64,000 nucleotides of DNA from Candidatus Lindowbacteria bacterium RIFCSPLOWO2_12_FULL_62_27 (GTDB lineage Bacteria > Lindowbacteria > 2-12-FULL-62-27). The stretch lies in NCBI GenBank assembly GCA_001784175.1, contig MFPR01000003.1, forward strand, positions 1 to 64,000, given 5' to 3'. Each line of letters starts with the position of its first letter. Within the stretch, counting starts at the first letter, position 1. The translations under genes and the position numbers were made by a program. Positions 11,694-24,974 of the stretch are shown piece by piece. Under the pieces are notes generated by a model. The model made no database searches. It saw nothing but the letters and a program-made list of their open reading frames with translations, and was not told where the DNA came from.

Positions 11694-12887
11694 CTACTTG
11701 CTGAACCAATACGGCTCGGCGGGATGCGCGCCGAACACGAATGTGATCTGGCCGTAAATCGTGGACTGGTCCGGCCCTGGCGTTCCGCCGATCTCCGGGC
11801 CCGCGGAATTCTGATACTCGTACCCGAGCCGCAGGCGCAGAAATTCTGTGGTATAGAACGAAACGTATCCGCCGATTTTCCTGTCCACGAGGGTTTTGTT
11901 GTTCAGCACCTGCGCCCTGTCGTACCGAACGCCGGCGAACCACCGTTGATACGGCTGAATCTGCAGAAGGCCGTAGGCGCCCGATGCGTTTCTCCGGTAG
12001 ATCGCGAGGGCGGGTTCCTCCCGGCTCATGTAGAAAAATTCGCCCTGGACCACCGTCGACCACAGGCCCTTCGGCTGATGCGCGCGCCACTTGTACATGA
12101 AGTCTCCGCCGAGGACCTCGTTGCGATGATGGACATTGTCGGTCACCCGCTTGCCGTTCATGTAACTCGTCCCAAGCTCCATGAAACTTTCGGGGTCCAG
12201 TTCCATATAATACTTGGCCCGGCCTAGATACGCCGGATCGCGCGAACTCACGCCGCCGAACTGGGTCGCGTTCTCCCCGTTGAACACCTCGCCCGTCAGG
12301 CTCAGCACATGGTCGGGATTTTTCTGCGGCATGATGTAATGAACCGACAGGCCCATCTCCGCCATCCCGTCTTCTCCCAGAAATGTCTGGATCGGCAGCG
12401 GCAGGGTCGATTGCGGAAGGTCGTGCAGGTGAAGCTGGTTTAAAATTCCGAACGCGTTCTTGAATTTCCCGGCTTTCGCGCTCACTCCGCGCGAAAGGGC
12501 CGTGAAAAGCACGTAGCCCTCCTCGATGGCGACCGATGCGGGTTGCAGCGGCCGCTCCTGCGACAGGGCCGTGATCAGCACGCCCTTGGCGTAGGGATCG
12601 ACGTCCGCGCGGAGGTCCAGCTCGACCTCGCGCATGTTAAAGCGGTCGGAAATCTCCTCGTTGTTCTCGTTCCGCACCGGCCCGTTGTCGATCCGGCCTG
12701 TGAAATCGCCGAACGCGGTGATTCGTGGATTGAACTCGTTGCCGCCCGACGCCCGCGGTTTGCCTGCCTGCCGCTCAAGCTCCGCGAGGCGCGCTTGGAG
12801 CGCGCGGATTTCCTCGCGGACCGATTCGTCCGCGGTGGATACCGTGGTCTGGAATAAAAATAGAATCAGCATGAACCCTCGTTTCAT
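11694..12887 (-). CDS. Porin-like outer-membrane beta-barrel in the metal-uptake operon
   Basis: A 397-residue exported protein. ATG 12887 has a good GGAGG eight bases upstream and gives a signal peptide (KRGFMLILFLFQTTVSTA). A short coiled coil follows (EEIRALQARLAELERQ), as in many trimeric porins. The rest alternates polar and aromatic residues in strands and ends ...TFVFGAHPAEPYWFSK. No TonB box is seen. Its stop abuts the binding-protein gene, so it may pass metal or a chelate across the outer membrane to that protein. The ligand is inferred from context only. Confidence 0.75.
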   Translation of the reverse strand: MKRGFMLILFLFQTTVSTADESVREEIRALQARLAELERQAGKPRASGGNEFNPRITAFGDFTGRIDNGPVRNENNEEISDRFNMREVELDLRADVDPYAKGVLITALSQERPLQPASVAIEEGYVLFTALSRGVSAKAGKFKNAFGILNQLHLHDLPQSTLPLPIQTFLGEDGMAEMGLSVHYIMPQKNPDHVLSLTGEVFNGENATQFGGVSSRDPAYLGRAKYYMELDPESFMELGTSYMNGKRVTDNVHHRNEVLGGDFMYKWRAHQPKGLWSTVVQGEFFYMSREEPALAIYRRNASGAYGLLQIQPYQRWFAGVRYDRAQVLNNKTLVDRKIGGYVSFYTTEFLRLRLGYEYQNSAGPEIGGTPGPDQSTIYGQITFVFGAHPAEPYWFSK

Positions 12888-13427: not shown

Positions 13428-14723
13428 TCAGGATGCACCCAACAGCCATTTCCAAACCGGACGGACGGCGACTTTTTTCCCGTGAATCGTCTCCGTACCC
13501 TCTTCATTGTAAGTCAGGATCATTCCATTTCGAATGCCGAAGGACTCCATCGCCTCGGCCAGGCCGCGCAACTCCCGATCCCGGCTGCTCGCGTCGATCT
13601 GCCATGCGACCTGAACGGCCGTTCGCGGCCGGGCGCCGTCCAAGATGACAAAATCGCATTCGTATCGGTCGCGCGAGTAGAATTGCCGCTCGCGTCTTCT
13701 CATCAGCTCGATGGACACGATGTTCTCCAAAATCTTTCCTCGATTTTCGCCCGACGCCACGCCCAGCGTCCGGAATCCGACGTCGATCAGATAGGACTTT
13801 CGCGGGTTTGCCAGCCGGTTTTTCGGCGAAAATGAAAACTTCTCGTTCAGGATGACAAAAAACGCCTCGTCCAAATACCGGAGATAATTCGAAATCGTTC
13901 GCTTACTGACGGCGCCCAGATTTTGCTTCGCCTGCCGCTCAAACGACGAAATGGAAAACAGATCGGCATACGTATTGAGACAGTATCCCATCATCGATTC
14001 CAACAGCGCCTTCGCCTTGATGTTGTACTGCTCGATGATGTCCTTGTAGAAAATTGTGGTCAGATACGTCTGCAGAAGCTTGCGTTTTTCGGCGTTTGTC
14101 TCCCGCGCCGCCACCTCCGGATAGCCGCCCCATGCGCAATAGTCGTCAAACGCCCGGAGCAATTTCCCGCGGCCGTGGGTATGGAGCGTGGCCGCCGTGT
14201 AGGAAACATTCCTGTATCGGAGAAACTCCTCGAAGGAAAAAGGCAGAATCAGCGTGTCTGCATACCGGCCCCGAAGTTCCGTCGCGACTTCGCGGCCGAG
14301 CAGTCGCGAGTTGCTTCCGGAAACCACGATGCGATATCGCCGGCGATTGTGAAGCGTCCGAAGAACCCGGCTCCAGTGCGGCAGATGATGGACTTCGTCG
14401 AAAAACAGAACCTTCGGGTCCTTGCCGGCGATCTGCCGAAACGCGGTGAAGAGCGCGTCCATGTCGGCCGGCCCAAATCCGATCAGCCGGTAATCCTCAA
14501 AGTCCACGAACAGAATGTCGTCTTTGCGCAGGCCTTCAGCCAGAAGGTTGCCGATGTACTGATACATGAGATAGGTCTTCCCCGCGCGCCGCGGCCCCAC
14601 AATGGCCAGGATGTCCGACCGGCGGTTCAGGTCGAGCCGGCCGCCTGTTCGGGGCGTCAATTCCGGCACGCGCGTTTCTTCAAGCCATTCGGCGACAATC
14701 GGTTTAAGAGCGGTCTCGTTCAT
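13428..14723 (-). CDS. AAA_14/DUF4143 ATPase
   Basis: A 431-residue P-loop protein. Walker A is VGPRRAGKTYL (about 43) and Walker B is VLFFDEVHHLP (about 105). IVVSGSNSRLL is sensor 1, and LPFSFEEFLRYR is the AAA_14 hallmark. The C-terminal DUF4143 part (ISNYLRYLDEAFFV, then YECDFVIL) has a restriction-endonuclease-like look with a D/E pair. These stand-alone ATPases are scattered, often horizontally moved genes; DNA binding is proposed, but the role is unknown. No partner gene adjoins it. Confidence 0.85.
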   Translation of the reverse strand: MNETALKPIVAEWLEETRVPELTPRTGGRLDLNRRSDILAIVGPRRAGKTYLMYQYIGNLLAEGLRKDDILFVDFEDYRLIGFGPADMDALFTAFRQIAGKDPKVLFFDEVHHLPHWSRVLRTLHNRRRYRIVVSGSNSRLLGREVATELRGRYADTLILPFSFEEFLRYRNVSYTAATLHTHGRGKLLRAFDDYCAWGGYPEVAARETNAEKRKLLQTYLTTIFYKDIIEQYNIKAKALLESMMGYCLNTYADLFSISSFERQAKQNLGAVSKRTISNYLRYLDEAFFVILNEKFSFSPKNRLANPRKSYLIDVGFRTLGVASGENRGKILENIVSIELMRRRERQFYSRDRYECDFVILDGARPRTAVQVAWQIDASSRDRELRGLAEAMESFGIRNGMILTYNEEGTETIHGKKVAVRPVWKWLLGAS

Positions 14724-15497: not shown

Positions 15498-16307
15498 TCA
15501 CAATTTGTGACCCCCTCCGGATTCCAATCGTCCCAGGAGCCGCAAGAGGCCGTCGAGGATCGTCAGCGGGTGCGGGGGGCAGCCGGGAATGTAGAGATCG
15601 ACGGGGAGGGGGTCCGCCGCGGCGGGTGGGTTGTCCGCGCCCACCAGGACCGCCGGACTTCCCCGGAACGGGCCCCCGCTGATGGCGCAGGCGCCGACGG
15701 CAATGACGAGCCGGGGCTGCGGAATGGCGTCGTACGTTTTCTGAAGGGCCAGCTTCATGTTTTTCGTGACGGGGCCGGTCAAGAGAATCCCGTCCGCGTG
15801 CCGGGGCGAGGCGACGAACTGAATGCCGAACCGGCCAAGGTCGAACACCACGTTGTTCAGCGCCTGAAGCTCCAATGCGCATCCGCTGCAATCTCCCGCC
15901 GCGACCTGCCGGAGTTTGAGCGACCGGCCGAAGAGGCTTTTCATTTTTGCGTCAAGCGCCGCCGCAAGCCGCATCTCAGCGCCGTTTCCCGCGAGGACCA
16001 GGTCCTCCCGGTTCCGGGCCGCCATCCGGTGATCCGCCGTGTAGCGAATCGCGCCTTCCGGACATGCGTTCACACATTCGGCGCAGAAGAGGCACCGGCC
16101 AAGATCGAGCCGGATGCCCGGGTCGAATCGGATCGCCTGCGTCGGGCAGGATTTCTCGCAGTCGTCACAGCCCTCCGGGCACTTCGTGCCGTCGATGGCG
16201 GGCCGCCCGCGGAACCGATCGGGAAACGTCGGCGCCTCCTCGGGCCATGCGGTCGTGCGGTGTCCCTGCCTCAGCCGGGTTTTCAGGACGTTCCATGCGT
16301 TGATCAT
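15498..16307 (-). CDS. Fused ferredoxin / NuoB-like small subunit of the Ehr-type complex
   Basis: A 269-residue iron-sulfur protein. The N-terminus carries two 4Fe-4S sites (Cys 43, 47, 50, 54 and 72, 75, 78, 82; CLFCAECVNACP), like HyfH/HycF. The C-terminal half is the HyfI/HycG/NuoB small subunit with its proximal cluster intact: CSGC (140, 143), VGAC (207) and PGCPP (243). Separate genes usually encode these two parts, so this is a fusion. It would pass electrons between a soluble carrier and the membrane complex. ATG 16307 lies 5 nt after the large-subunit stop. It is the last gene of the operon. Confidence 0.88.
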   Translation of the reverse strand: MINAWNVLKTRLRQGHRTTAWPEEAPTFPDRFRGRPAIDGTKCPEGCDDCEKSCPTQAIRFDPGIRLDLGRCLFCAECVNACPEGAIRYTADHRMAARNREDLVLAGNGAEMRLAAALDAKMKSLFGRSLKLRQVAAGDCSGCALELQALNNVVFDLGRFGIQFVASPRHADGILLTGPVTKNMKLALQKTYDAIPQPRLVIAVGACAISGGPFRGSPAVLVGADNPPAAADPLPVDLYIPGCPPHPLTILDGLLRLLGRLESGGGHKL

Positions 16308-16312
16308 CCGGG

Positions 16313-17767
16313 CTAGAGGTCGTGTCCGGCGTAGGAGAGGTTGAAACTTTTGTTGCACAGCGGGAAATCCGAAATCGGAGTTTCGCGCAATGCGAGCGAA
16401 AGAGCCGTCCAGTTGTGAAAGGACGGGTCCTTGATTTTGTATCGTTGAATTTCCCCGGCCTCGCCTGTGCTCGCCACGTGCGTGATCTCTCCGCGCCAGC
16501 CTTCCACCAGCGACACGGCCATCCGGCGCGGGGGCCGGGCGCCGCAGGTGTTTCTCAGGTCCTGCGATCCTTCCGGCAGGTCCCGGACCTGGGATTCGAG
16601 AAAATGAATGCTGCGTTCGATCTCGAGCCTTCTCACCATCGCCCGCGCGTACACGTCGCCGCCGGACACCGTGGAAACCGGAATGTGCGCAAATCGATAC
16701 GCGCCGTGAGGGTGATCCGAGCGCACATCGATCGTCCATCCGCAGGCGCGGGCCGCGGGGCCGACCAGTCCGAGATCGCGGCAGGCCCACTCCGAAACGG
16801 TCCCCGCACCCTCCAACCGGGCCAGCACGGAAGGCGTCTCGAACATGAGATCCGCCGCCGAATGGATTTCCCTGCCGGCGCGGTTCAATGTCGACAGGAA
16901 GTCATCGGCCATCCGCGGGTGCAAATCAAAGAGGACGCCGCCGGGCCGGATCAGCGACCGCCCATAGCGGTTCCCGGACAGATCCATCAGCATGTTCAGA
17001 AACTCTCCGCGCAACCGCCCGAAGTAGGCCGCGGACGGGAGGAATCCCACGTCGGCGCACAGCGCGCCCAGATCCCCCACGTGATTCGCCAGGCGCTCCA
17101 GTTCCAGCGCGACGGCCCGCAGGGCGTGGGCGCGCGGAGAAACCGCGCAGGCCGACAGCGCCTCGGTGACATTGCAATATGCTGTCGCGTGGCCGATCAC
17201 GGTATCGCCGGCGATCGATTCCGCCACGACCATCGCTCTATGCGCGGGCGCGGTTTCGAGGAGCGTTTCGGCGCCGCGGTGCTGGTAGCCGAGCTGGATC
17301 TCGAGATGCAGGACGTTTTCTCCCTGACACTGGAACCGGAAATGTCCCGGCTCGATGATTCCCGCATGGACCGGACCGACCGCCACCTCGTGCAGTTCCT
17401 CGCCGCGCGCGGAAAAAAATGGCGTGCCGCCGGGATAGCGGACGGGCTTGAGCCACGGATGGCCGGCGGGAACCACCTCGAATTGCTCGGCGATCTCGCG
17501 CTCGAAAAGATGCGCCTGCGGGCAATCCGGCGTGAGCGATTCGAACCGGCCGGTGACGGCGGTCGACAGGACCGACAGCTTATTTTCGGCGTCGTGGGCA
17601 AGGACGCAGAAGAGGCCTATGGTTCGGTTTTCCTGTTGTATCCCGAACAACGCGGATATCCTCAGTCCCCTCCCGACGCCGTCCAGAATCTCCTGCCGGA
17701 ATTTCGACGGCGGCAGGCGCGGAACATCGCCGATCTTGAACGATTCGCCGTTTTGGGCCGTGAGCAT
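16313..17767 (-). CDS. HyfG/NuoCD-like large subunit lacking nickel ligands (Ehr type)
   Basis: A 484-residue protein. An N-terminal NuoC-like part (LFEREIAEQFEVVPAGHPWL) is fused to a NuoD/HycE-like part (HLEIQLGYQHRGAETLLE). Group 4 NiFe hydrogenases bind the metal through RxCGxC and DPCxxC. Here the first site reads ESIAGDTVIGHATAYC and the last reads ISDFPLCNKSFNLSY, so all four nickel cysteines are missing. This defines Ehr (energy-converting hydrogenase related) complexes, whose substrate is unknown. It is therefore not a hydrogenase. ATG 17767 follows GGTGG; a GTG at 17779 overlapping the previous stop would add four residues. Confidence 0.85.
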   Translation of the reverse strand: MLTAQNGESFKIGDVPRLPPSKFRQEILDGVGRGLRISALFGIQQENRTIGLFCVLAHDAENKLSVLSTAVTGRFESLTPDCPQAHLFEREIAEQFEVVPAGHPWLKPVRYPGGTPFFSARGEELHEVAVGPVHAGIIEPGHFRFQCQGENVLHLEIQLGYQHRGAETLLETAPAHRAMVVAESIAGDTVIGHATAYCNVTEALSACAVSPRAHALRAVALELERLANHVGDLGALCADVGFLPSAAYFGRLRGEFLNMLMDLSGNRYGRSLIRPGGVLFDLHPRMADDFLSTLNRAGREIHSAADLMFETPSVLARLEGAGTVSEWACRDLGLVGPAARACGWTIDVRSDHPHGAYRFAHIPVSTVSGGDVYARAMVRRLEIERSIHFLESQVRDLPEGSQDLRNTCGARPPRRMAVSLVEGWRGEITHVASTGEAGEIQRYKIKDPSFHNWTALSLALRETPISDFPLCNKSFNLSYAGHDL

Positions 17768-17775
17768 TTCCACCG

Positions 17776-19245
17776 TCACGGCCCCGCGATCAGGCGCGCG
17801 GCCCGTTCGAACACCGCCGACAGGCCGGCCGGAATCCAGACGCCGGTGAGGATGAGCCACGCCGTCATGGACGCCGCCAGCGCGCGCGCGCCGGAAGTCT
17901 CCGGGCGTGGCGCCTCCAATCGCGCAGGAGGATCTCCGGACGCCATGTCGATGGCGTGTTTGAGCGCGCCGCAGAAGACAACGGCGACCGCCGCGAGAAA
18001 AACGGCGCTTGCGGCGAAATGCCCGCCTGAAATCCCCGCGCGGACGATCAGAAACTCGCTCATGAAAATCGCGCCCGGCGCGCAGCCGATCAGGACGAGG
18101 AGCGAGGCGAACAGGCCGGTTCCCCAGACGGGGCACGCGGCGGCGCTGCCGGAAATCGATTCCATATTTCTGGTTCCATACCGCTGCCCGACCCGGCCCG
18201 CGCAAAAGAACGCCAGGGATTTGCAGACGGAATGATTGAGCGTGTGATAGAGGGCCGCAACACAGCCGGCGGGCCCGAACCCCAGGCCGACCGTGATGAT
18301 GCCCATGTGTTCCACGCTGTGGTAGGCGAGCAGGCGCTTGACGTCCCGCTGGATCAGGATGAACACTCCGGCCACGGCCATCGAAGCCAGGCCGAATCCC
18401 ACGAGAATCCGCCGGCCCCATTCGGGCGTTCCGGTGGCCGCTGAGACAATCGGAAGAAACCGGCAGATGCAGTAGGAGGCGCAATTGAGCAGAACGCCGG
18501 AAAAGACGGCCGACACGGGCGTCGGCGCCTGGCTGTGCGCGTCAGGCAACCACGTGTGCATCGGCGCAAGGCCCATTTTGGTCCCGTAGCCGACCACCAT
18601 CAGCACGAATCCGATCTTGACCAGCGCCGGATTCATCCCGCCCGCGCGGGCGACGAGGTCCGGCCAGCGCAGGGCGCCCTCTCCGGCCGCGCCCGGCGAG
18701 GGCGATGCGCCGTGGATGAAGACGGTGCCCAACAGTCCGAGGACGAGTCCGGCCGAACAGATGATGAGATATTTCCAGGCGGCTTCGATGGACAGCCGGT
18801 CGGAATGGGTGCAAATCAGAAACGCGGACGCCAGCGTTGTCGATTCCATTGCGACCCACATCAGGCCTACGTTGCTGAACAGGAGCACGCCCGCCATGGA
18901 CCCGAGGAACGAAAACCACAACGCGCCGAATCTCCGGGCCTGCCGGTCGTCCAGTGACTGCGCGGCCGGCTCGTGATTGAAATAGTCGCGGGCATAGATG
19001 GACGAAAAAAGAAAAATCCCCGTCACCAGGCAGAGATGAAATGCCGACAGCGCGTCCAGCGCCAGATGGCCGAAACAGGCGTCGATGGCGCCGCGGCGGT
19101 ACACGACCGCGCCCGCGGCCGCAGCGATCGTGGCCTCGAGGGCGGACCCGGCGATGAGGCACGCGAAAACCGCCGTCCGGCGTCGGATCAGGAGGCACAA
19201 GATCGCGCCCGCCACAGGCACGGCCGCCAGCGCCCACAGAATCAT
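17776..19245 (-). CDS. HyfF/NuoN-like antiporter-type membrane subunit
   Basis: A 489-residue protein with about 13-14 hydrophobic segments of the proton-translocating Mrp/NuoLMN family. The key helix region holds MVVGYGTKMGLAPMHTWLPDAHSQAPTPVSAVFSGVLLN, written here in two parts: the lysine-bearing TM7 (GYGTKMGLAP) and TM8 (PVSAVFSGVL). ...RDVKRLLAYHSVEHMGI is the conserved TM9-10 loop, and the TM5 glutamate is in WVAMESTTLAS. Ion pumping linked to the Fe-S arm is the family role. It follows the HyfE-like gene by 7 nt. Confidence 0.88.
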   Translation of the reverse strand: MILWALAAVPVAGAILCLLIRRRTAVFACLIAGSALEATIAAAAGAVVYRRGAIDACFGHLALDALSAFHLCLVTGIFLFSSIYARDYFNHEPAAQSLDDRQARRFGALWFSFLGSMAGVLLFSNVGLMWVAMESTTLASAFLICTHSDRLSIEAAWKYLIICSAGLVLGLLGTVFIHGASPSPGAAGEGALRWPDLVARAGGMNPALVKIGFVLMVVGYGTKMGLAPMHTWLPDAHSQAPTPVSAVFSGVLLNCASYCICRFLPIVSAATGTPEWGRRILVGFGLASMAVAGVFILIQRDVKRLLAYHSVEHMGIITVGLGFGPAGCVAALYHTLNHSVCKSLAFFCAGRVGQRYGTRNMESISGSAAACPVWGTGLFASLLVLIGCAPGAIFMSEFLIVRAGISGGHFAASAVFLAAVAVVFCGALKHAIDMASGDPPARLEAPRPETSGARALAASMTAWLILTGVWIPAGLSAVFERAARLIAGP

Positions 19246-19252
19246 GTGTCCG

Positions 19253-19894
19253 CTATCCTTTCAGTTTCCGCATGCGGCTGACGTCCGTGTGCGCGAACGT
19301 TTCATGAACGCTCTGAATGAACCCGCCGAAAATCATGGCGGCCAGAAGGACGTCGAACAGAACGGCCATCTCGATCACAAACGGCAGGCCCCGACTGATC
19401 CGGAGCGACAGAATCAGAATTCCGTTTTCGAGAATCAGAAATCCGATCACCTGGCCCACGGCCTTCCGCCGGTTGACCATGATCAGCATGCCCGTCAGGA
19501 TCGTCGCCAGCCCCACGGCGCCCATGAGACCGTCGTGCGGCCGGAGCGGCGCGGGAATGAGCGCGCCGGCCCGGAAGGCGGCGGCGAGGATGGCGAATCC
19601 GACGAGGACCGACGCCACGGGTCCGAGAAAGGGCTGGGCCACGCGAAATTCGTCGGTCGACCGGATCACGCGGATCAAAATGAGCGGCATGAGTATCCCT
19701 TTCACGATCAGGGTCCCCGCTGACAGAAACAACGCCTGCGGCGATCCCGCGAGCGCCTCGGGCAGAGGCAGGACCGCCAGGAGACATCCCTGCAGGGCGA
19801 TCGAGCGGACGCTGTTGACGTACCGGCCCGTGTTGAGGATGTAAAAATTGGTGATCACGACGAGGACAAGGACCGCCGGAAATTCCCCCGTCAT
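19253..19894 (-). CDS. HyfE-like membrane subunit
   Basis: A 213-residue protein with six to seven hydrophobic segments. It resembles HyfE (an extended NuoK-like subunit): GTLIVKGILMPLILIRVI, then QVIGFLILENGILILSL with the NuoK-type membrane glutamate. ATG 19894 overlaps the preceding stop as ATGA. Hydrogenase-4-like and Ehr operons keep this gene between the HyfC and HyfF homologues, as here. Confidence 0.85.
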   Translation of the reverse strand: MTGEFPAVLVLVVITNFYILNTGRYVNSVRSIALQGCLLAVLPLPEALAGSPQALFLSAGTLIVKGILMPLILIRVIRSTDEFRVAQPFLGPVASVLVGFAILAAAFRAGALIPAPLRPHDGLMGAVGLATILTGMLIMVNRRKAVGQVIGFLILENGILILSLRISRGLPFVIEMAVLFDVLLAAMIFGGFIQSVHETFAHTDVSRMRKLKG

Positions 19895-20832
19895 GAGCCG
19901 GCCGCCAGCGTCAGGATCACGCCGAATCCGGAAAGAACAAACGAGAGCGCCAGAAGCTGCGGGATGCGCGACAGGCGCAGCCGTGCCATCGTCGATTCTA
20001 TGACGCCGACGAGAACCGACAGCGCCGCAAGGCCAATCACCAGCGCGGCCCCGCCCTCCCAGAATCCCCCGCTGCGGATGGGACACACGATCCGGACGAG
20101 GAGTGCGCCGAGCGCAAAGAATTTGACGGCCGATCCGTATTCGATCAGCGCGAGGTCCGGCCCGCCGTGATCGAGGACCATGACTTCGTGGATCATCGTC
20201 AATTCCAGATGGGTGTTCGGATCATCCACCGGAATCCGGGAATTCTCCGTCAGAAAGACGACGAGAAACGCCGCCGTGACCAGACAGAGCGCCGGCGCGT
20301 GAATCGACCAGATACGGATCAGCCCCACGCTCAGCACATCGCTCATCGAAAAACTTCCCGCTTCGCGCGCCAGCGCCAGAAGACCCAATAGAAGCGCCGG
20401 TTCCGCCAGGCACGAGAACGCCGCCTCGCGGCTTGCGCCCATGCCCTCGAAGGCCGAGCCCGTGTCGAGCGCCGCCGTCATCGTGAAAAAGCGCGACAGG
20501 CCCCAGAGGTAGGCGAAGAGAATCAGGTCGCCCTGAAACGTCAGCGGCGATTCCATCCCGCCCAGCGGAATGATCAGCGTCGCCGCCAGGGCCGCTGAAA
20601 ACGAAACCACGGGACCGGCCCGAAACAGCCACGTCGTCGTGCGGCTGTACACCGCGCCCTTGCGAAAGAGTTTGAAAATGTCCCGGTAGGGCTGCAGGAG
20701 CGGCGGGCCCCGCCGGCCCGCAAACCATGCCTTGGTTTTGGCGACGATCCCGGGCAGGATCGGCGAAACGGCGAGAACGAAGGCCCACTGCCGGACGATT
20801 TCCCGCGCGGTATCCATCAGATCGGTCATCAT
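19891..20832 (-). CDS. HyfC/NuoH-like membrane anchor subunit
   Basis: A 313-residue NuoH/HyfC homologue that ties the Fe-S arm to the membrane. LLQPYRDIFKLFRKGAVYS is the family-conserved first cytoplasmic loop. FVVFLTENSRIPVDDPNTHLE, split as LTENSRIPVDDPNTH and LELTMIHEVMVLDHGG, holds the acidic quinone-chamber-like residues. Its stop and start both form ATGA overlaps with neighbours. Start 20832 is the first of two adjacent ATGs. Confidence 0.88.
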   Translation of the reverse strand: MMTDLMDTAREIVRQWAFVLAVSPILPGIVAKTKAWFAGRRGPPLLQPYRDIFKLFRKGAVYSRTTTWLFRAGPVVSFSAALAATLIIPLGGMESPLTFQGDLILFAYLWGLSRFFTMTAALDTGSAFEGMGASREAAFSCLAEPALLLGLLALAREAGSFSMSDVLSVGLIRIWSIHAPALCLVTAAFLVVFLTENSRIPVDDPNTHLELTMIHEVMVLDHGGPDLALIEYGSAVKFFALGALLVRIVCPIRSGGFWEGGAALVIGLAALSVLVGVIESTMARLRLSRIPQLLALSFVLSGFGVILTLAAGS

Positions 20833-22799
20833 CGGAACGCCTGAAACGACAGAATCGCCGCGAGTGTGACGAAAACATAGAGAAGATAGGTCTGCACGCG
20901 ACCCTGCTGAACCCACTGCAATTTTTCTGCGGCGCCTTGAATCCAACCGAAAAGAGGCCCAAATACGCGGCGAGTCGCCAGATCGCCGGTGTGAGATTCG
21001 TAGGAGGCCTCCTTGGGAAAGTATCCGGCCGGCGGCCGGCGATGTTCCTGCGGCTGGAGAATCGCTTGAAAGAGATCCATGAAAGGCTGAACAAACGAGC
21101 CGGCGGTGTACTGCATCCTGGGGGTCGGCGCGGCATAGCCGCAGTCCCACGTGACGGTTTGTCCCGCAGGCCGCCCGGCCAGCATCCACCGTCGCACGAT
21201 CGCGATGAGAATCATCAGCGCGACCAGCGCGCCGATGCAAAGATTCGCCCACTGGAGCGTCCCCGCCAGCGTCAGCAGACTCTCTGCGCCGGCGTCCGAA
21301 ACGACGCCGGCCGATAACAGAACCGCCGTCGCCCATCCCCGGCAGGCGGCGGCCGGAAACACGCCGATCAGAACACAGGCGGCGGCCAGCGCCGCCATCG
21401 GCGTGGCCATGGAAAACGGCGTGGCATGGGCGCCGGTCGGACCTCTCGGCTCGCCCAGGAAGACGACGCCGAACACCTTCACGAAACAGGCGCTCGCGAG
21501 TCCGCCGATAAGCGCGAGGCCCGCAATGGCGGCCGCGGCCGCCGCGCCGCCGGCGGCGGAACCCAGGGCCAGTTTGAAAAAGCAGACGTAAATCAGAAAT
21601 TCGCTGACAAACCCGTTCAGCGGCGGCAGGCCGCTGATGGCGGCGGCGCCGATGAGAAACGTCGTGCCGGTCAGCGGCATTTTTTTCAGAAGGCCGCCCA
21701 ATTTCTCGATGTCCCGCGTGCCCGTCGCGTGCAGGACGCTTCCCGCGCCCATAAAGAGCAGGCCCTTGAAGAGCGCATGGTTGATGACGTGCAGAATGGC
21801 CCCGGCCCATCCAAACACCGCCGCCGTTTCCATTCCGTACGACATGCCGAGAAGCCCGCCGCCCAGACCGATCGCGATAATGCCGATGTTTTCCACGCTG
21901 TGATAGGCCAGAAGCCGTTTGATGTCATGCTGGGCGAGCGCGAACAGAACGCCGAGAACCCCGGACGTGAGGCCGATCAAGAGCAGCGTCAGTCCCCACC
22001 ACGCCGGCGGCGGGCCGATCACCGTCACGATCCGGATCAGCCCGTAGATCCCCGTTTTGATCATGACGCCGGACATCACGGCCGAAACGTGGCTCGGCGC
22101 CGCCGGGTGCGCCTCCGGAAGCCACACATGAAGCGGCCAGAATCCCGCCTTGGCGCCAAAGCCGATCAGCGCAAGGATGAACCACGCCGAGGCAAGGTGC
22201 GGCCATGTCCGGGATATGCCCTGCCACCGGTCGAAATCGAAACTCCCGGCCGCGCTTCCCATCCACGCAAACAGGAGGACGATGAAGGCCGTGCCGAGAT
22301 GGGTGGCCACGAGGTACATCCAGCCGGCGCGCCGCACGCCGGTCTCGCGGGAGTCGAGCATGACGAGGAAAAAGGACGAGAGCGCCATGACTTCCCATGC
22401 CAGCAGGAACAGCACGGCGTTTTTCGCGGCGACCACCACGCACATGGAGATTGCGAGGAGATGGAAGAAAAAGATGACCTGTCCGATTTGGCGGTTCTCG
22501 CGGCCGTTCAGATATCCCACGCTGTAGACGGAGGCCAGCGCGCTGAGGAGCAGAATCGGAATGAGAAAAATCGCCGAGAGAGGATCCAGCGCGAGATGGA
22601 TCTCGGCGCCGGGCATCTGCCAGCCGGCCCGATACACGGCGCCGCCGCCCGTCACGAGAACCTTTGCGGCCGCCACGAGGCCCAGCGCGGCGCCCGCAAC
22701 CGCCGCGGCCGACGAAACGGCCGGCATGCGCCGGTTGCCGGCAAGTCCGGCGAGGCCGCCGAGCGCCCACAGGCCGAGGCAGAGGAGAAAGAGCGTCAT
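20829..22799 (-). CDS. HyfB/NuoL-like antiporter-type membrane subunit
   Basis: A 656-residue member of the NuoL/MrpA family with about 15-16 hydrophobic segments. LLAWEVMALSSFFLV has the TM5 Glu. FGAKAGFWPLHVWLPEAHPA has the TM7 Lys. SAVMSGVMIKTGIYGLIR and HDIKRLLAYHSVENIGI are typical. The C-terminus has a long soluble stretch (QPQEHRRPPAGYFPKEASYE) and a last helix, as in HyfB. It is the first membrane subunit of the operon and overlaps the EIIA gene as ATGA. Confidence 0.9.
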   Translation of the reverse strand: MTLFLLCLGLWALGGLAGLAGNRRMPAVSSAAAVAGAALGLVAAAKVLVTGGGAVYRAGWQMPGAEIHLALDPLSAIFLIPILLLSALASVYSVGYLNGRENRQIGQVIFFFHLLAISMCVVVAAKNAVLFLLAWEVMALSSFFLVMLDSRETGVRRAGWMYLVATHLGTAFIVLLFAWMGSAAGSFDFDRWQGISRTWPHLASAWFILALIGFGAKAGFWPLHVWLPEAHPAAPSHVSAVMSGVMIKTGIYGLIRIVTVIGPPPAWWGLTLLLIGLTSGVLGVLFALAQHDIKRLLAYHSVENIGIIAIGLGGGLLGMSYGMETAAVFGWAGAILHVINHALFKGLLFMGAGSVLHATGTRDIEKLGGLLKKMPLTGTTFLIGAAAISGLPPLNGFVSEFLIYVCFFKLALGSAAGGAAAAAAIAGLALIGGLASACFVKVFGVVFLGEPRGPTGAHATPFSMATPMAALAAACVLIGVFPAAACRGWATAVLLSAGVVSDAGAESLLTLAGTLQWANLCIGALVALMILIAIVRRWMLAGRPAGQTVTWDCGYAAPTPRMQYTAGSFVQPFMDLFQAILQPQEHRRPPAGYFPKEASYESHTGDLATRRVFGPLFGWIQGAAEKLQWVQQGRVQTYLLYVFVTLAAILSFQAFR

Positions 22800-23509
22800 C
22801 GGGCGCGGCCGGCACGGCCGGCGCGGCCGCCCGCTGCGATCACCTGCGCCTCGGCCCTCTCGATCGCGGAAAAAATTTCCTCCCGCGTTTCCCGTTTCTC
22901 AAGAACTTTTCGAACGCGCGCGTCTCTCAAGACAAAGGCCAGCCGGGACAGGAGGTGAAGGTGGGCCCGGACGGTGGGGCTGATCATGATGAAGAGCGTC
23001 GACACGGGCTTTCCATCCAGCGCGCCGAACTCGATCGGATGCTCCAGGAACGCGAGCGTGATGGAAGGCCGGGTGACGTGAAGGACGATGGGATTGCGGA
23101 CATGAGGAATCGCGATGCCGTCTCCGATGCCGGTGGACCCCAGCGCTTCGCGCGCCATGAGCACTTTCAGAAGAAAATTGAGATTGACCTCCTCGGGAAG
23201 ACGCAGATGTTCGACGACGCTCGACAGGACCCGCGACTTGTCCCGGCCCTCGATGCGGTACAGAACCCCGCCGTTCCGGAGCGCCTCCGAAACCGCGGGA
23301 AGCGGAATTCCGCCGGACTCCGGCTCGGACAGGATGCCGGGGTCGAGCGGGATCTTTCTCGACGTCGCCCATTCCAGAAGCTCCACGCGGTTGAACCGAA
23401 GGGTCTCGTGGAGCCGGTAGGCGGGGACCCCGCCCTGTTTGATCCAGCGGTAGAGCGTCTTTTCCGACACGTTCAAGAGTGCGGCGGCATCTTTGACGGA
23501 TAAGTTCAT
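22796..23509 (-). CDS. HTH - PTS EIIA (fructose/Ntr-type) regulator of the Ehr operon
   Basis: A 237-residue two-part protein. Residues 1-50 form an excisionase/MerR-like helix-turn-helix (MNLSVKDAAALLNVSEKTL, then RWIKQGGVPAYRL). Residues about 85-225 form an EIIA domain of the mannitol/fructose/Ntr class. The phosphorylatable His is 136, in GIGDGIAIPHVRNP. No other PTS component is nearby. As first gene of the operon, overlapping hyfB, it most likely regulates the complex by phosphorylation state or DNA binding rather than moving sugar. The start has no Shine-Dalgarno; TGAGACA repeats lie directly upstream. Confidence 0.85.
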   Translation of the reverse strand: MNLSVKDAAALLNVSEKTLYRWIKQGGVPAYRLHETLRFNRVELLEWATSRKIPLDPGILSEPESGGIPLPAVSEALRNGGVLYRIEGRDKSRVLSSVVEHLRLPEEVNLNFLLKVLMAREALGSTGIGDGIAIPHVRNPIVLHVTRPSITLAFLEHPIEFGALDGKPVSTLFIMISPTVRAHLHLLSRLAFVLRDARVRKVLEKRETREEIFSAIERAEAQVIAAGGRAGRAGRAR

Positions 23510-23510
23510 A

Positions 23511-23552
23511 TGTCTCAGTTTGTCTCATATTTCTCACGGCGCCGGATGTCAA
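23511..23552 (-). promoter_or_regulatory. Promoter and TGAGACA direct repeats before the Ehr operon
   Basis: On the minus strand TTGACA (23547-23552) and TATGAG (23524-23529) are 17 bp apart. Two exact TGAGACA words (23521-23527 and 23511-23517) and a third, weaker GTGAGAA (23531-23537) recur every 10 bp, one helical turn. They overlap the -10 box and the start of transcription. This suits an operator for the HTH of the first gene (inference). Confidence 0.5.
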
Positions 23553-23562
23553 GCGGCAAGCC

Positions 23563-23592
23563 TTGTCAGAATTTGCCGCGACCAGTTACAAT
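23563..23592 (+). promoter_or_regulatory. Likely promoter of cysC-cysH
   Basis: TTGTCA (23563-23568) and TACAAT (23587-23592), each five of six to consensus, lie 18 bp apart. The AGGAGG ribosome site of cysC (23611-23616) follows. It is divergent from the Ehr promoter. Confidence 0.5.
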
Positions 23593-23622
23593 GCGCGCAC
23601 AGAACAACAAAGGAGGATGTCC

Positions 23623-24234
23623 ATGGGCACAGAAGTCAGAGCGACCAACATTACGTGGCACGGCGGCGAGGTGACGTCCGAGATGCGGCAGGACCGGATG
23701 CGGCAGCGCGGCGCGACGGTTTGGCTGACCGGGCTTTCGGCGTCGGGCAAATCGACGATCGCGCGCGATCTGGAACGGAAACTTCACGAGGGCGGGCGCA
23801 TCTCTTATGTCCTCGACGGCGACAACATCCGGCACGGGCTCAACAAGGACCTCGGGTTTTCGCCGAAGGACCGGGAGGAAAATATCCGGCGGATCGGAGA
23901 AGTCGCGGCGCTCTTCACCGACGCCAATCTCATCGTCATCACGGCCTTCATCTCGCCCTACCGCCAGGACCGGGACAACGTCCGAAAGCTCATGAAGGAG
24001 GGCCAGTTTATCGAAGTCCACGTGGACTGCGATGTCGACACGTGTGAGAAGCGAGACCCGAAGGGGCTGTATCAGAAGGCGAAGGCAGGGCAGATCCCCG
24101 AGTTTACCGGGATTTCCGCGCCGTATGAGGCGCCTCTCAAACCCGAGATCGTCATTCCGTCCGCGCGGATGAGCGTCGACGAGGCCGCCGGCCTTCTGAT
24201 GACGTACCTGCGGAAGAACCGGTTTTTGCTCTGA
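23623..24234 (+). CDS. cysC: Adenylyl-sulfate kinase
   Basis: A 203-residue APS kinase that makes PAPS from APS and ATP in the cytoplasm. The P-loop is LTGLSASGKSTIA (37-45). DGDNIRHGLNKDLGFS and DREENIRRIGEVA are CysC-specific, and AFISPYRQDRD and CDVDTCEKRDPKGLY follow. ATG 23623 stands six bases after AGGAGG; the ATG at 23617 overlaps that site and is unlikely. Its stop overlaps the next start by one base, linking it to cysH. No ATP sulfurylase gene is in the window. Confidence 0.95.
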   Translation: MGTEVRATNITWHGGEVTSEMRQDRMRQRGATVWLTGLSASGKSTIARDLERKLHEGGRISYVLDGDNIRHGLNKDLGFSPKDREENIRRIGEVAALFTDANLIVITAFISPYRQDRDNVRKLMKEGQFIEVHVDCDVDTCEKRDPKGLYQKAKAGQIPEFTGISAPYEAPLKPEIVIPSARMSVDEAAGLLMTYLRKNRFLL

Positions 24235-24974
24235 TGCAATTTCAAAGTCACGACCTCGCGGCTCTCGATGGACTGGACGTCGATGGCCGGCTGAAATGGG
24301 CGTCGGACCGGTTCCCCGGCCGGGCCGGGATCGGCACCAGCTTTCAGCACAATGGGATGCTCCTGATCGATATCCGCTGCCGCCGCAATCTCACCGGCCT
24401 CCGCATTTACACCATCGACACCGAACGGCTCCTGCCCGAAACGTACGACTTCATCAAGACGATCGAAGCGCAGTACGGCATTCGGATCGAGGTCCACCGG
24501 CCCGACCCGGCGGAAATCCGGAAGATGGTCGACGAGCACGGTCTCTACCTGTTTTTTGACAGCAAGGAGAAGCAGGAGTATTGCTGTTATCTTCGGAAGG
24601 TCAAACCCCACGACCGCGTGTTGGACGGCCTCGACGTGTGGATCACGGGCCTGCGGCGCGTGCAGTCCGAACACCGCCAGCGCGTGCCGCTGTACGAGAT
24701 CATCGACCGCAAAGGCCGGCAGATTCTAAAACTGAATCCGCTGTTCGACTGGACGGACGAGCGGATCGAGGCGGAGGTCAAACGCCGAAACGTCCCCGTC
24801 CACCCGCTCTATTCGCAGGGATTCCCGAGTTTCGGCTGCGTCATCTGCACCACGCCGATCAGGCCGGGCGAGGACAAGCGCGCCGGTCGATGGCGGTGGC
24901 GCACAGGGCGCGCCGCGGTCGACGACAAGAAGGAGTGCGGACTGCACATCGAAAAAGGCGCGGACGCCGATTAA
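24234..24974 (+). CDS. cysH: APS/PAPS reductase, 4Fe-4S type
   Basis: A 246-residue reductase giving sulfite from activated sulfate. It has the PP-loop-like start (GIGTSFQHNGMLL), CCYLRKVKP (Cys 117-118), ITGLRRVQSEHR, CVICTTP (Cys 202, 205) and the redox tail KKECGLHIE (Cys 235). The CC plus CxxC pattern binds a 4Fe-4S cluster and marks the APS-reducing branch rather than the cluster-free PAPS reductases. Being coupled to an APS kinase is then somewhat redundant. Its end overlaps the convergent LON-domain gene by 4 bp. Confidence 0.9.
   Translation: MQFQSHDLAALDGLDVDGRLKWASDRFPGRAGIGTSFQHNGMLLIDIRCRRNLTGLRIYTIDTERLLPETYDFIKTIEAQYGIRIEVHRPDPAEIRKMVDEHGLYLFFDSKEKQEYCCYLRKVKPHDRVLDGLDVWITGLRRVQSEHRQRVPLYEIIDRKGRQILKLNPLFDWTDERIEAEVKRRNVPVHPLYSQGFPSFGCVICTTPIRPGEDKRAGRWRWRTGRAAVDDKKECGLHIEKGADAD

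Follow-up and report, generated by a model that had tools for sequence, protein, structure and literature searches.

How might a bacterium control a membrane complex that is built like a hydrogenase but keeps no ligands for nickel? This question is raised by a seven-gene operon of Candidatus Lindowbacteria bacterium RIFCSPLOWO2_12_FULL_62_27 (GCA_001784175.1), which lies on the minus strand at positions 15498-23509 of the 64,000-nucleotide stretch of contig MFPR01000003.1 that was analysed (positions 1 to 64,000; the window). All seven genes run in one direction, in the order EIIA-HTH, HyfB, HyfC, HyfE, HyfF, HyfG and a fused HyfH/HyfI. The first encodes a protein in which a helix-turn-helix (HTH) domain is joined to an EIIA domain of the phosphotransferase system (PTS), and judged by its sequence the complex encoded by the other six belongs with Ehr, a known kind. 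The answer that we favour, and regard as reasonably probable, is that this BldC-like EIIA-HTH protein, which could be phosphorylated by the PTS, controls its own Ehr operon, and that Ehr is a non-NiFe, ion-pumping oxidoreductase. The Ehr complex has been described before; what is new is a conserved, dedicated EIIA-HTH regulator with a candidate operator, which has no counterpart in the literature searched.

The regulator (237 aa; 22796-23509, minus strand) consists of a HTH_17/BldC-like winged HTH of the MerR/excisionase type at residues 3-51 (PF12728, E 2.7e-15; TIGR01764, E 9.7e-12) and a PTS EIIA-2 domain at residues 82-218 (PF00359, E 1.9e-26). Its predicted model (pLDDT 90.9) has PtsN as the best fold match (3urr, TM-score to the target 0.81), and the phospho-acceptor His136 and His183 of the EIIA domain are invariant in 78 of 78 proteins. 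The protein thus shares with EIIA-Ntr (PtsN) both the EIIA-2 fold and the active-site histidine pair, but unlike PtsN it adds an N-terminal winged HTH and serves a single operon. Apart from it, the genome encodes a PtsN that has no HTH. On another contig, rpoN, ptsN, HPr kinase, rapZ, mannose-type EIIA/B/C/D, HPr and EI are encoded all together. With EI, HPr and HPr kinase encoded outside the window, a phosphate donor exists for EIIA-HTH, which on these sequence grounds looks able to read the phosphotransferase signal of the cell.

Because the phylum of the window is represented by three genomes, the linkage and motif statistics were drawn from other phyla; gene calls in related loci were made with a simple script, from which the motif controls were also built, and, as contigs of metagenome-assembled genomes (MAGs) are short, a gene missing at a contig end was not scored as absent. 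In 35 of 80 Ehr loci the EIIA-HTH gene lies just before hyfB. These loci come from Lindowbacteria, Omnitrophota, Elusimicrobia, Planctomycetota, Eisenbacteria, Gemmatimonadetes, Anaeromyxobacter (Myxococcota), Verrucomicrobia, Bacteroidetes/Ignavibacteria, Spirochaetes, Cloacimonetes and Acidobacteria, so that the linkage is found under at least 11 phylum-level names among the 80 loci. Among 285 Omnitrophota genomes, high-scoring EIIA-HTH genes are present in 31 and Ehr in 31, with both in 30, EIIA-HTH only in 1, Ehr only in 1 and neither in 253 (Fisher p=2.8e-38); for the 31 EIIA-HTH genes of the 30 genomes that have both, Ehr shares contig and strand and is no more than 6.6 kb away in 24 cases, and is on another contig in 7. 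When 782 Verrucomicrobiota and Bacteroidota genomes were searched for EIIA-HTH alone, hyfB was directly downstream on the same strand at 39 of the 43 loci inspected.

The link between EIIA-HTH and Ehr is therefore strongly supported, by conserved adjacency, by the invariant phospho-histidine and by the cognate direct-repeat site described below. The sequence-only reading of this DNA had recognised a DNA-binding domain joined to a PTS EIIA domain in the first gene, which the Pfam and fold matches uphold; its remark that no PTS is nearby is right for the window and fails for the genome, which carries the full set on another contig. The question that it posed, whether EIIA-HTH genes always adjoin Ehr operons, is answered in the negative, as Ehr stands alone in Desulfobacterota loci, in L036 and in the near relative L007, and a few EIIA-HTH genes stand alone, away from Ehr. 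In two Desulfobacterota loci (at about 14.4 kb in L062 and about 11.8 kb in L084) a related EIIA-HTH gene, separate from Ehr, is followed by a gene that by eye looks like a ClC-type channel (cluster c10). One genome has two tandem EIIA-Ehr operons (L151 and G285 contig C100:625-15998). No published link between EIIA-HTH and Ehr was found in a literature search that did not extend to most subscription papers, among them the first descriptions of Ehr.

What the regulator might bind is suggested by a candidate operator, AGACAaactgAGACA (23511-23525, minus strand), a GACA direct repeat of period 10 that lies 2-16 nt before the EIIA-HTH start codon; a repeat of this type occurs as a single exact copy in the window. 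Upstream of EIIA-HTH genes the motif is a period-10 direct repeat, GACA-N6-GACA (RGACA-N5-RGACA), and in a first set it was exact in 5 of 37 EIIA-HTH upstream regions compared with 2 of 296 controls. As the repeat had come to notice post hoc, 41 independent loci were then tested under an unchanged criterion; an exact match occurs in 10 of them, compared with 0.66 expected from random segments (300 draws, maximum 4; Fisher p=1.4e-8 against control upstream regions). When periods from 6 to 24 were scanned in 78 EIIA-HTH upstream regions, 25 carried the repeat at period 10 and no other period gave more than 4, with 2 of 296 controls at period 10. Every motif-positive gene (25 of 25) has Tyr20, Arg38 and Arg41 in its HTH, compared with 19-23 of 53 motif-negative genes for these residues, in tests that ignore kinship, loci within one phylum being not fully independent. 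In a third set, of 26 Omnitrophota regions, there are four repeat matches, all with the Y20/R38/R41 type of HTH and none behind a SulP transporter gene; among Omnitrophota loci without an upstream SulP gene, 4 of 15 carry the repeat (p=5e-5). The GACA repeats, being enriched upstream, may thus be direct-repeat targets at regulated promoters. This arrangement resembles that of the BldC family (MerR-like), which binds direct repeats head to tail and shares the HTH_17/excisionase-type winged HTH, direct-repeat sites and a spacing of about one helical turn per subunit; BldC differs in being a free 68-residue domain with 9 bp sites, as opposed to an HTH fused to EIIA with a repeat period of 10 (PMC5859096).

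In the Omnitrophota, a SulP anion transporter gene (PF00916 with STAS) is the one recurrent partner directly before EIIA-Ehr operons, and it was found in this position in that phylum only: in about 10 of the 80 loci and in 11 of 26 further Omnitrophota regions, some of which may come from the same genomes as the 80 loci. The arrangement is seen in L008, L009, L013, L014, L018, L019, L022, L024, L025 and L027 and among L149-L164. An ArsR-type regulator gene sometimes lies between SulP and EIIA-HTH. Further upstream, and in the same direction as SulP, EIIA-HTH and Ehr, five Omnitrophota loci (L008, L013/L149, L015, L148 and L150) have a gene for an ACT-domain malic enzyme. No operator was found upstream of SulP-led operons, the exception being one site in L015, 97 nt before a malic enzyme gene that is first in its operon and overlaps EIIA-HTH. 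Malic enzyme makes pyruvate, and EI responds to the ratio of phosphoenolpyruvate (PEP) to pyruvate, which fits a signal from the pyruvate node, although this neighbourhood is only suggestive of one.

In the system that we propose, EIIA-HTH would be the operon's own transcription regulator, whose HTH would sit head to tail on GACA-N6-GACA repeats at the promoter of its own gene. EI and HPr, from genes elsewhere in the genome, would phosphorylate His136 of the EIIA domain and so modulate DNA binding, and the PEP:pyruvate ratio, or a PTS-Ntr nitrogen signal, would set Ehr expression; we infer that carbon or nitrogen status might in this way control Ehr. A scan for sigma-70 promoters found none above chance; by eye, a TTGACA-17-TATGAG promoter can be read upstream of EIIA-HTH, and the repeat in the window lies at or just past its -10 element. 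Since the repeat overlaps this presumed -10/start region, repression appears slightly more likely as the sign of regulation. A different mode of action, which we consider unlikely but worth taking seriously, is that EIIA-HTH acts post-translationally, with the EIIA domain docking on Ehr, much as PtsN binds KdpD or TrkA, and its phosphorylation gating activity, and with DNA binding being only autoregulatory. The tight, translationally coupled linkage of the gene to those of a membrane complex would suit this mode, as would the regulation of K+ systems by PtsN-type EIIA proteins (PMC9239096, with background knowledge) and the Ignavibacteria-type members, which lack the operator yet keep the linkage and both histidines. 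However, the HTH is retained in almost all members, and where Y20/R38/R41 are present a matching promoter repeat is often found, which argues for transcription first.

The complex that would be regulated is encoded by six genes, all on the minus strand: a HyfB/NuoL-like antiporter-type subunit (656 aa; 20829-22799; PF00361, E 3e-54), a HyfC/HycD/NuoH-like subunit (313 aa; 19891-20832; PF00146, E 5.2e-34; aligned with E. coli HyfC, HycD and NuoH), a HyfE-like membrane subunit (213 aa; 19253-19894; NF008556, E 1.4e-18, under the curated cut-off of the model), a HyfF/NuoM-like antiporter-type subunit (489 aa; 17776-19245; PF00361, E 9.9e-47; NF005044, E 5.6e-115), the large subunit EhrL, which is HyfG/NuoCD-like (16313-17779; PF00346, E 8.6e-38), and the small subunit EhrS, a HyfH/HyfI fusion (15498-16307; PF01058, E 1e-29, and Fer4 models). 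Pfam and NCBIfam support the identities of all seven genes of the operon, HyfE by NCBIfam alone. The junctions comprise two gaps of 5 and 7 nt and three 4-nt overlaps, with a fourth if HyfG starts at GTG (gene span 16313-17779) and not at the alternative ATG at 17767. NuoH-like, HyfE-like and Mrp/NuoL-type antiporter subunits, the combination that marks Ehr, stand together in this single operon, and no gene of the NuoE/F/G type (the NADH module) was found among its genes or the flanking genes scanned. A species-level genome collection contains 503 relatives, so the locus is more than chance.

Ehr has been described in Geobacter, in relatives of Margulisbacteria and in Nitrospira, the latter two being reported without NiFe ligands, and its function is given as unknown or uninvestigated (PMC7894505, PMC6349859, PMC10284858). 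The Geobacter Ehr, GSU0739-0745, has the same subunit set as the window, with EhrL lacking nickel ligands, EhrS, and HyfE-like and NuoL-like subunits (PMC7894505, PMC6349859, PMC10284858). By its large subunit a Geobacter MAG (L035) is among the relatives, and in the tree the window shares its clade with Desulfuromonadales loci. Geobacter-type loci differ in having no EIIA-HTH gene, whereas the operon in the window starts with the regulator and has a HyfH-type ferredoxin domain fused to the small subunit. With the formate hydrogenlyase (FHL) and hydrogenase-4 of E. coli (Hyc, Hyf), the window operon shares the nearest solved large-subunit fold (7z0s_E, TM-score 0.89) and the B-C-E-F-G-H-I order common to hyf, but it lacks their nickel cysteines, C-terminal extension, HyfA/HycB and HyfD, and contains no maturation protease gene. 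The Mycobacterium tuberculosis hyc locus (Rv0082-Rv0087), whose genes are named in published papers, presumably has a similar subunit set with an adjacent regulator, Rv0081, which we take to be of the ArsR type and not an EIIA-HTH.

In an alignment of the large subunit with E. coli HycE and HyfG (NC_000913), CGIC is replaced by AGDT and DPCYSC by NLSYAG, and the set of four nickel-ligand cysteines is absent in all 38 Ehr family members aligned. Its predicted model (pLDDT 88.8) is nearest in fold to HycE, then to NuoCD. All 38 proteins end, as NuoD does, exactly at what we take to be the maturation-cleavage position of HycE, which extends 32 residues beyond it. In a tree of 51 sequences the 38 Ehr proteins form a single clade (100/100), apart from FHL, complex I and Ech-type hydrogenases, and membership in FHL or complex I is ruled out by this tree together with the motifs. 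Cys475 in FPLCNKS was considered as a new metal ligand and rejected, as it is missing in L012, L016, L067, L079 and L083. A second Ehr-like group in Omnitrophota (L097-L101) branches next to the main clade, is also without the nickel cysteine set and has no EIIA gene within the stretches read.

A possible electron path through the complex is suggested by EhrS, which combines a NuoB-like domain with an N-terminal two-cluster ferredoxin domain of the HyfH type. The N2 cysteines (C140, C143, C207 and C243) are invariant in 68 of 68 relatives, and the window and most Bacteroidota loci have all eight cysteines of the ferredoxin domain; in Desulfobacterota these eight are partly lost, and in Omnitrophota (L008-L027) they are almost wholly lost while the N2 cysteines stay. 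In the antiporter-type subunits, the glutamate of transmembrane helix 5 and the lysines of helices 7 and 12 are kept in both HyfB and HyfF, and the lysine of helix 8 is kept in HyfB alone, E. coli HyfF likewise being without it. Both a wire from ferredoxin to N2 and electron flow that drives ion pumping are plausible in this genome. In view of the loss in Omnitrophota, not every member of the family has a wire fed by ferredoxin, and Ehr could not simply be a ferredoxin oxidoreductase everywhere; family-wide, either another electron donor or one that is a protein apart from the complex is required. The sequence-only reading had described seven genes at 15498-23509 overlapping or nearly touching, an Ehr-type membrane complex, a large subunit with the NuoC/NuoD fold and no RxCGxC or DPCxxC, and intact small-subunit Fe-S cysteines, and these points agree, respectively, with the coordinates (widest gap 7 nt), with the subunit families, nickel-ligand loss and tree, with AGDT/NLSYAG and the fold matches to HycE and then NuoCD, and with the cysteine counts in EhrS. 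Neither of the outcomes that it named as refuting was seen: no member (0/38) has four cysteines at the nickel positions, and the clade lies outside true formate hydrogenlyases (100/100). Its claim of intact antiporter-type lysines holds for helices 7 and 12 in HyfB and HyfF and for helix 8 in HyfB.

For the chemistry of the complex, we propose that a low-potential donor, probably ferredoxin, would feed the pair of [4Fe-4S] clusters in the fused HyfH domain, from which electrons would pass to N2 and then to a non-proton acceptor, in the space that the NiFe site or, in complex I, the quinone would occupy; conformational coupling via HyfC would then power ion transport by HyfB and HyfF. It is also conceivable, though doubtful, that we are dealing with a short complex I that works as a quinone-reducing ferredoxin dehydrogenase. 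Its fold and sequence match NuoCD, NuoB, NuoH and NuoL/M, and the complex I genes of the genome together with a Rieske/cytochrome b-like pair (by eye) make quinone use likely, but the quinone residues of complex I (Nqo4 His38 and Tyr87) are not kept, Tyr87 being replaced by Gly and the His38 segment being hydrogenase-type (alignment, by eye), and L1 is AGDT, unlike the aligned complex I sequences. It seems to us improbable that the large subunit serves as a structural relay in what would chiefly be an ion channel or antiporter (Mrp-like), redox-sensing or regulated, with N2 as a sensor outside any electron path. Such a role would account for N2 cysteines that persist where the Omnitrophota ferredoxin domain loses its own, for the SulP transporter upstream in that phylum and for the missing redox partner, as no conserved redox partner enzyme was found beside the operon among the Ehr loci; it sits poorly with the eight intact ferredoxin-domain cysteines in the window and most Bacteroidota, as electron delivery would lead one to expect, and with the Geobacter Ehr subunits, which are more abundant with formate as electron donor than under hydrogen-containing conditions (PMC7894505). 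A DabA-like or formate dehydrogenase partner next to Ehr was considered and rejected, the large neighbours read (by sequence or Pfam) being unrelated, e.g. a UvrA-like protein. A hydrogenase with other metal ligands, to which group-4 ancestry and a hydrogenase-like segment, GPVHAGIIEPGHFRF, might point, was rejected on the alignment and is very improbable, as the four-cysteine set is missing in 38 of 38 members and there is no C-terminal maturation extension.

Several observations weigh against an EIIA-HTH-controlled, ferredoxin-fed Ehr pump as proposed here. On the regulatory side, they are the Ehr loci without EIIA-HTH (Desulfobacterota, L036 and L007), the association of motif and HTH residues being uncorrected for phylogeny, the lack of the repeat upstream of many Omnitrophota and all Ignavibacteria-type EIIA-HTH genes, and the nearest EIIA-HTH-bearing relative, L006, which matches the repeat with one mismatch at best. 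On the side of the complex, the loss of ferredoxin-domain cysteines in Omnitrophota argues against ferredoxin as the donor throughout the family, both the NiFe ligands and the quinone residues of complex I are absent from the large subunit, and a conserved redox partner is missing.

The surroundings of the operon were also read. Upstream of it and divergent from it lie cysC (APS kinase, for adenosine 5'-phosphosulfate) and cysH (reductase for APS or its 3'-phospho form, PAPS) at 23563-24974 on the plus strand, which share the intergenic region with the candidate operator; a search of the 80 relatives found neither gene close to Ehr. Downstream there is a tRNA-Val, and at 13428-14723 (minus strand) an AAA_14/DUF4143 ATPase adjoins a metal ABC transporter (ZnuA-like, ABC-3); a protein at 11694-12887, without a Pfam family, is likewise next to this ATPase. 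Elsewhere the genome has two further complex I-type gene sets (C17:173k-183k and C6:237k-244k; L091 and L092), a NiFe hydrogenase with hyp-like genes (C37, L093; by eye) and the Rieske/cytochrome b-like pair.

Ehr complexes are widespread and highly conserved. The widest form of the present reading, which we would call an even matter, is that EIIA-HTH proteins are a one-component family dedicated to Ehr in at least 11 phyla, which reads the PEP phosphorelay, acts on GACA-N6-GACA and ties the pump to the PEP:pyruvate or nitrogen state, with an Ehr in Omnitrophota whose ferredoxin wiring is gone. If true, this would be an unusual design, with a respiratory-type complex under the control of a BldC-like DNA-binding domain that is joined to an EIIA domain. 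Models of the electron source of Ehr have to allow for a phylum that lost the ferredoxin clusters, and the GACA repeat may be used for finding further targets of the regulator. Together, a dedicated regulator, a likely PTS input and a candidate operator would offer a handle on which carbon or nitrogen state switches Ehr on.

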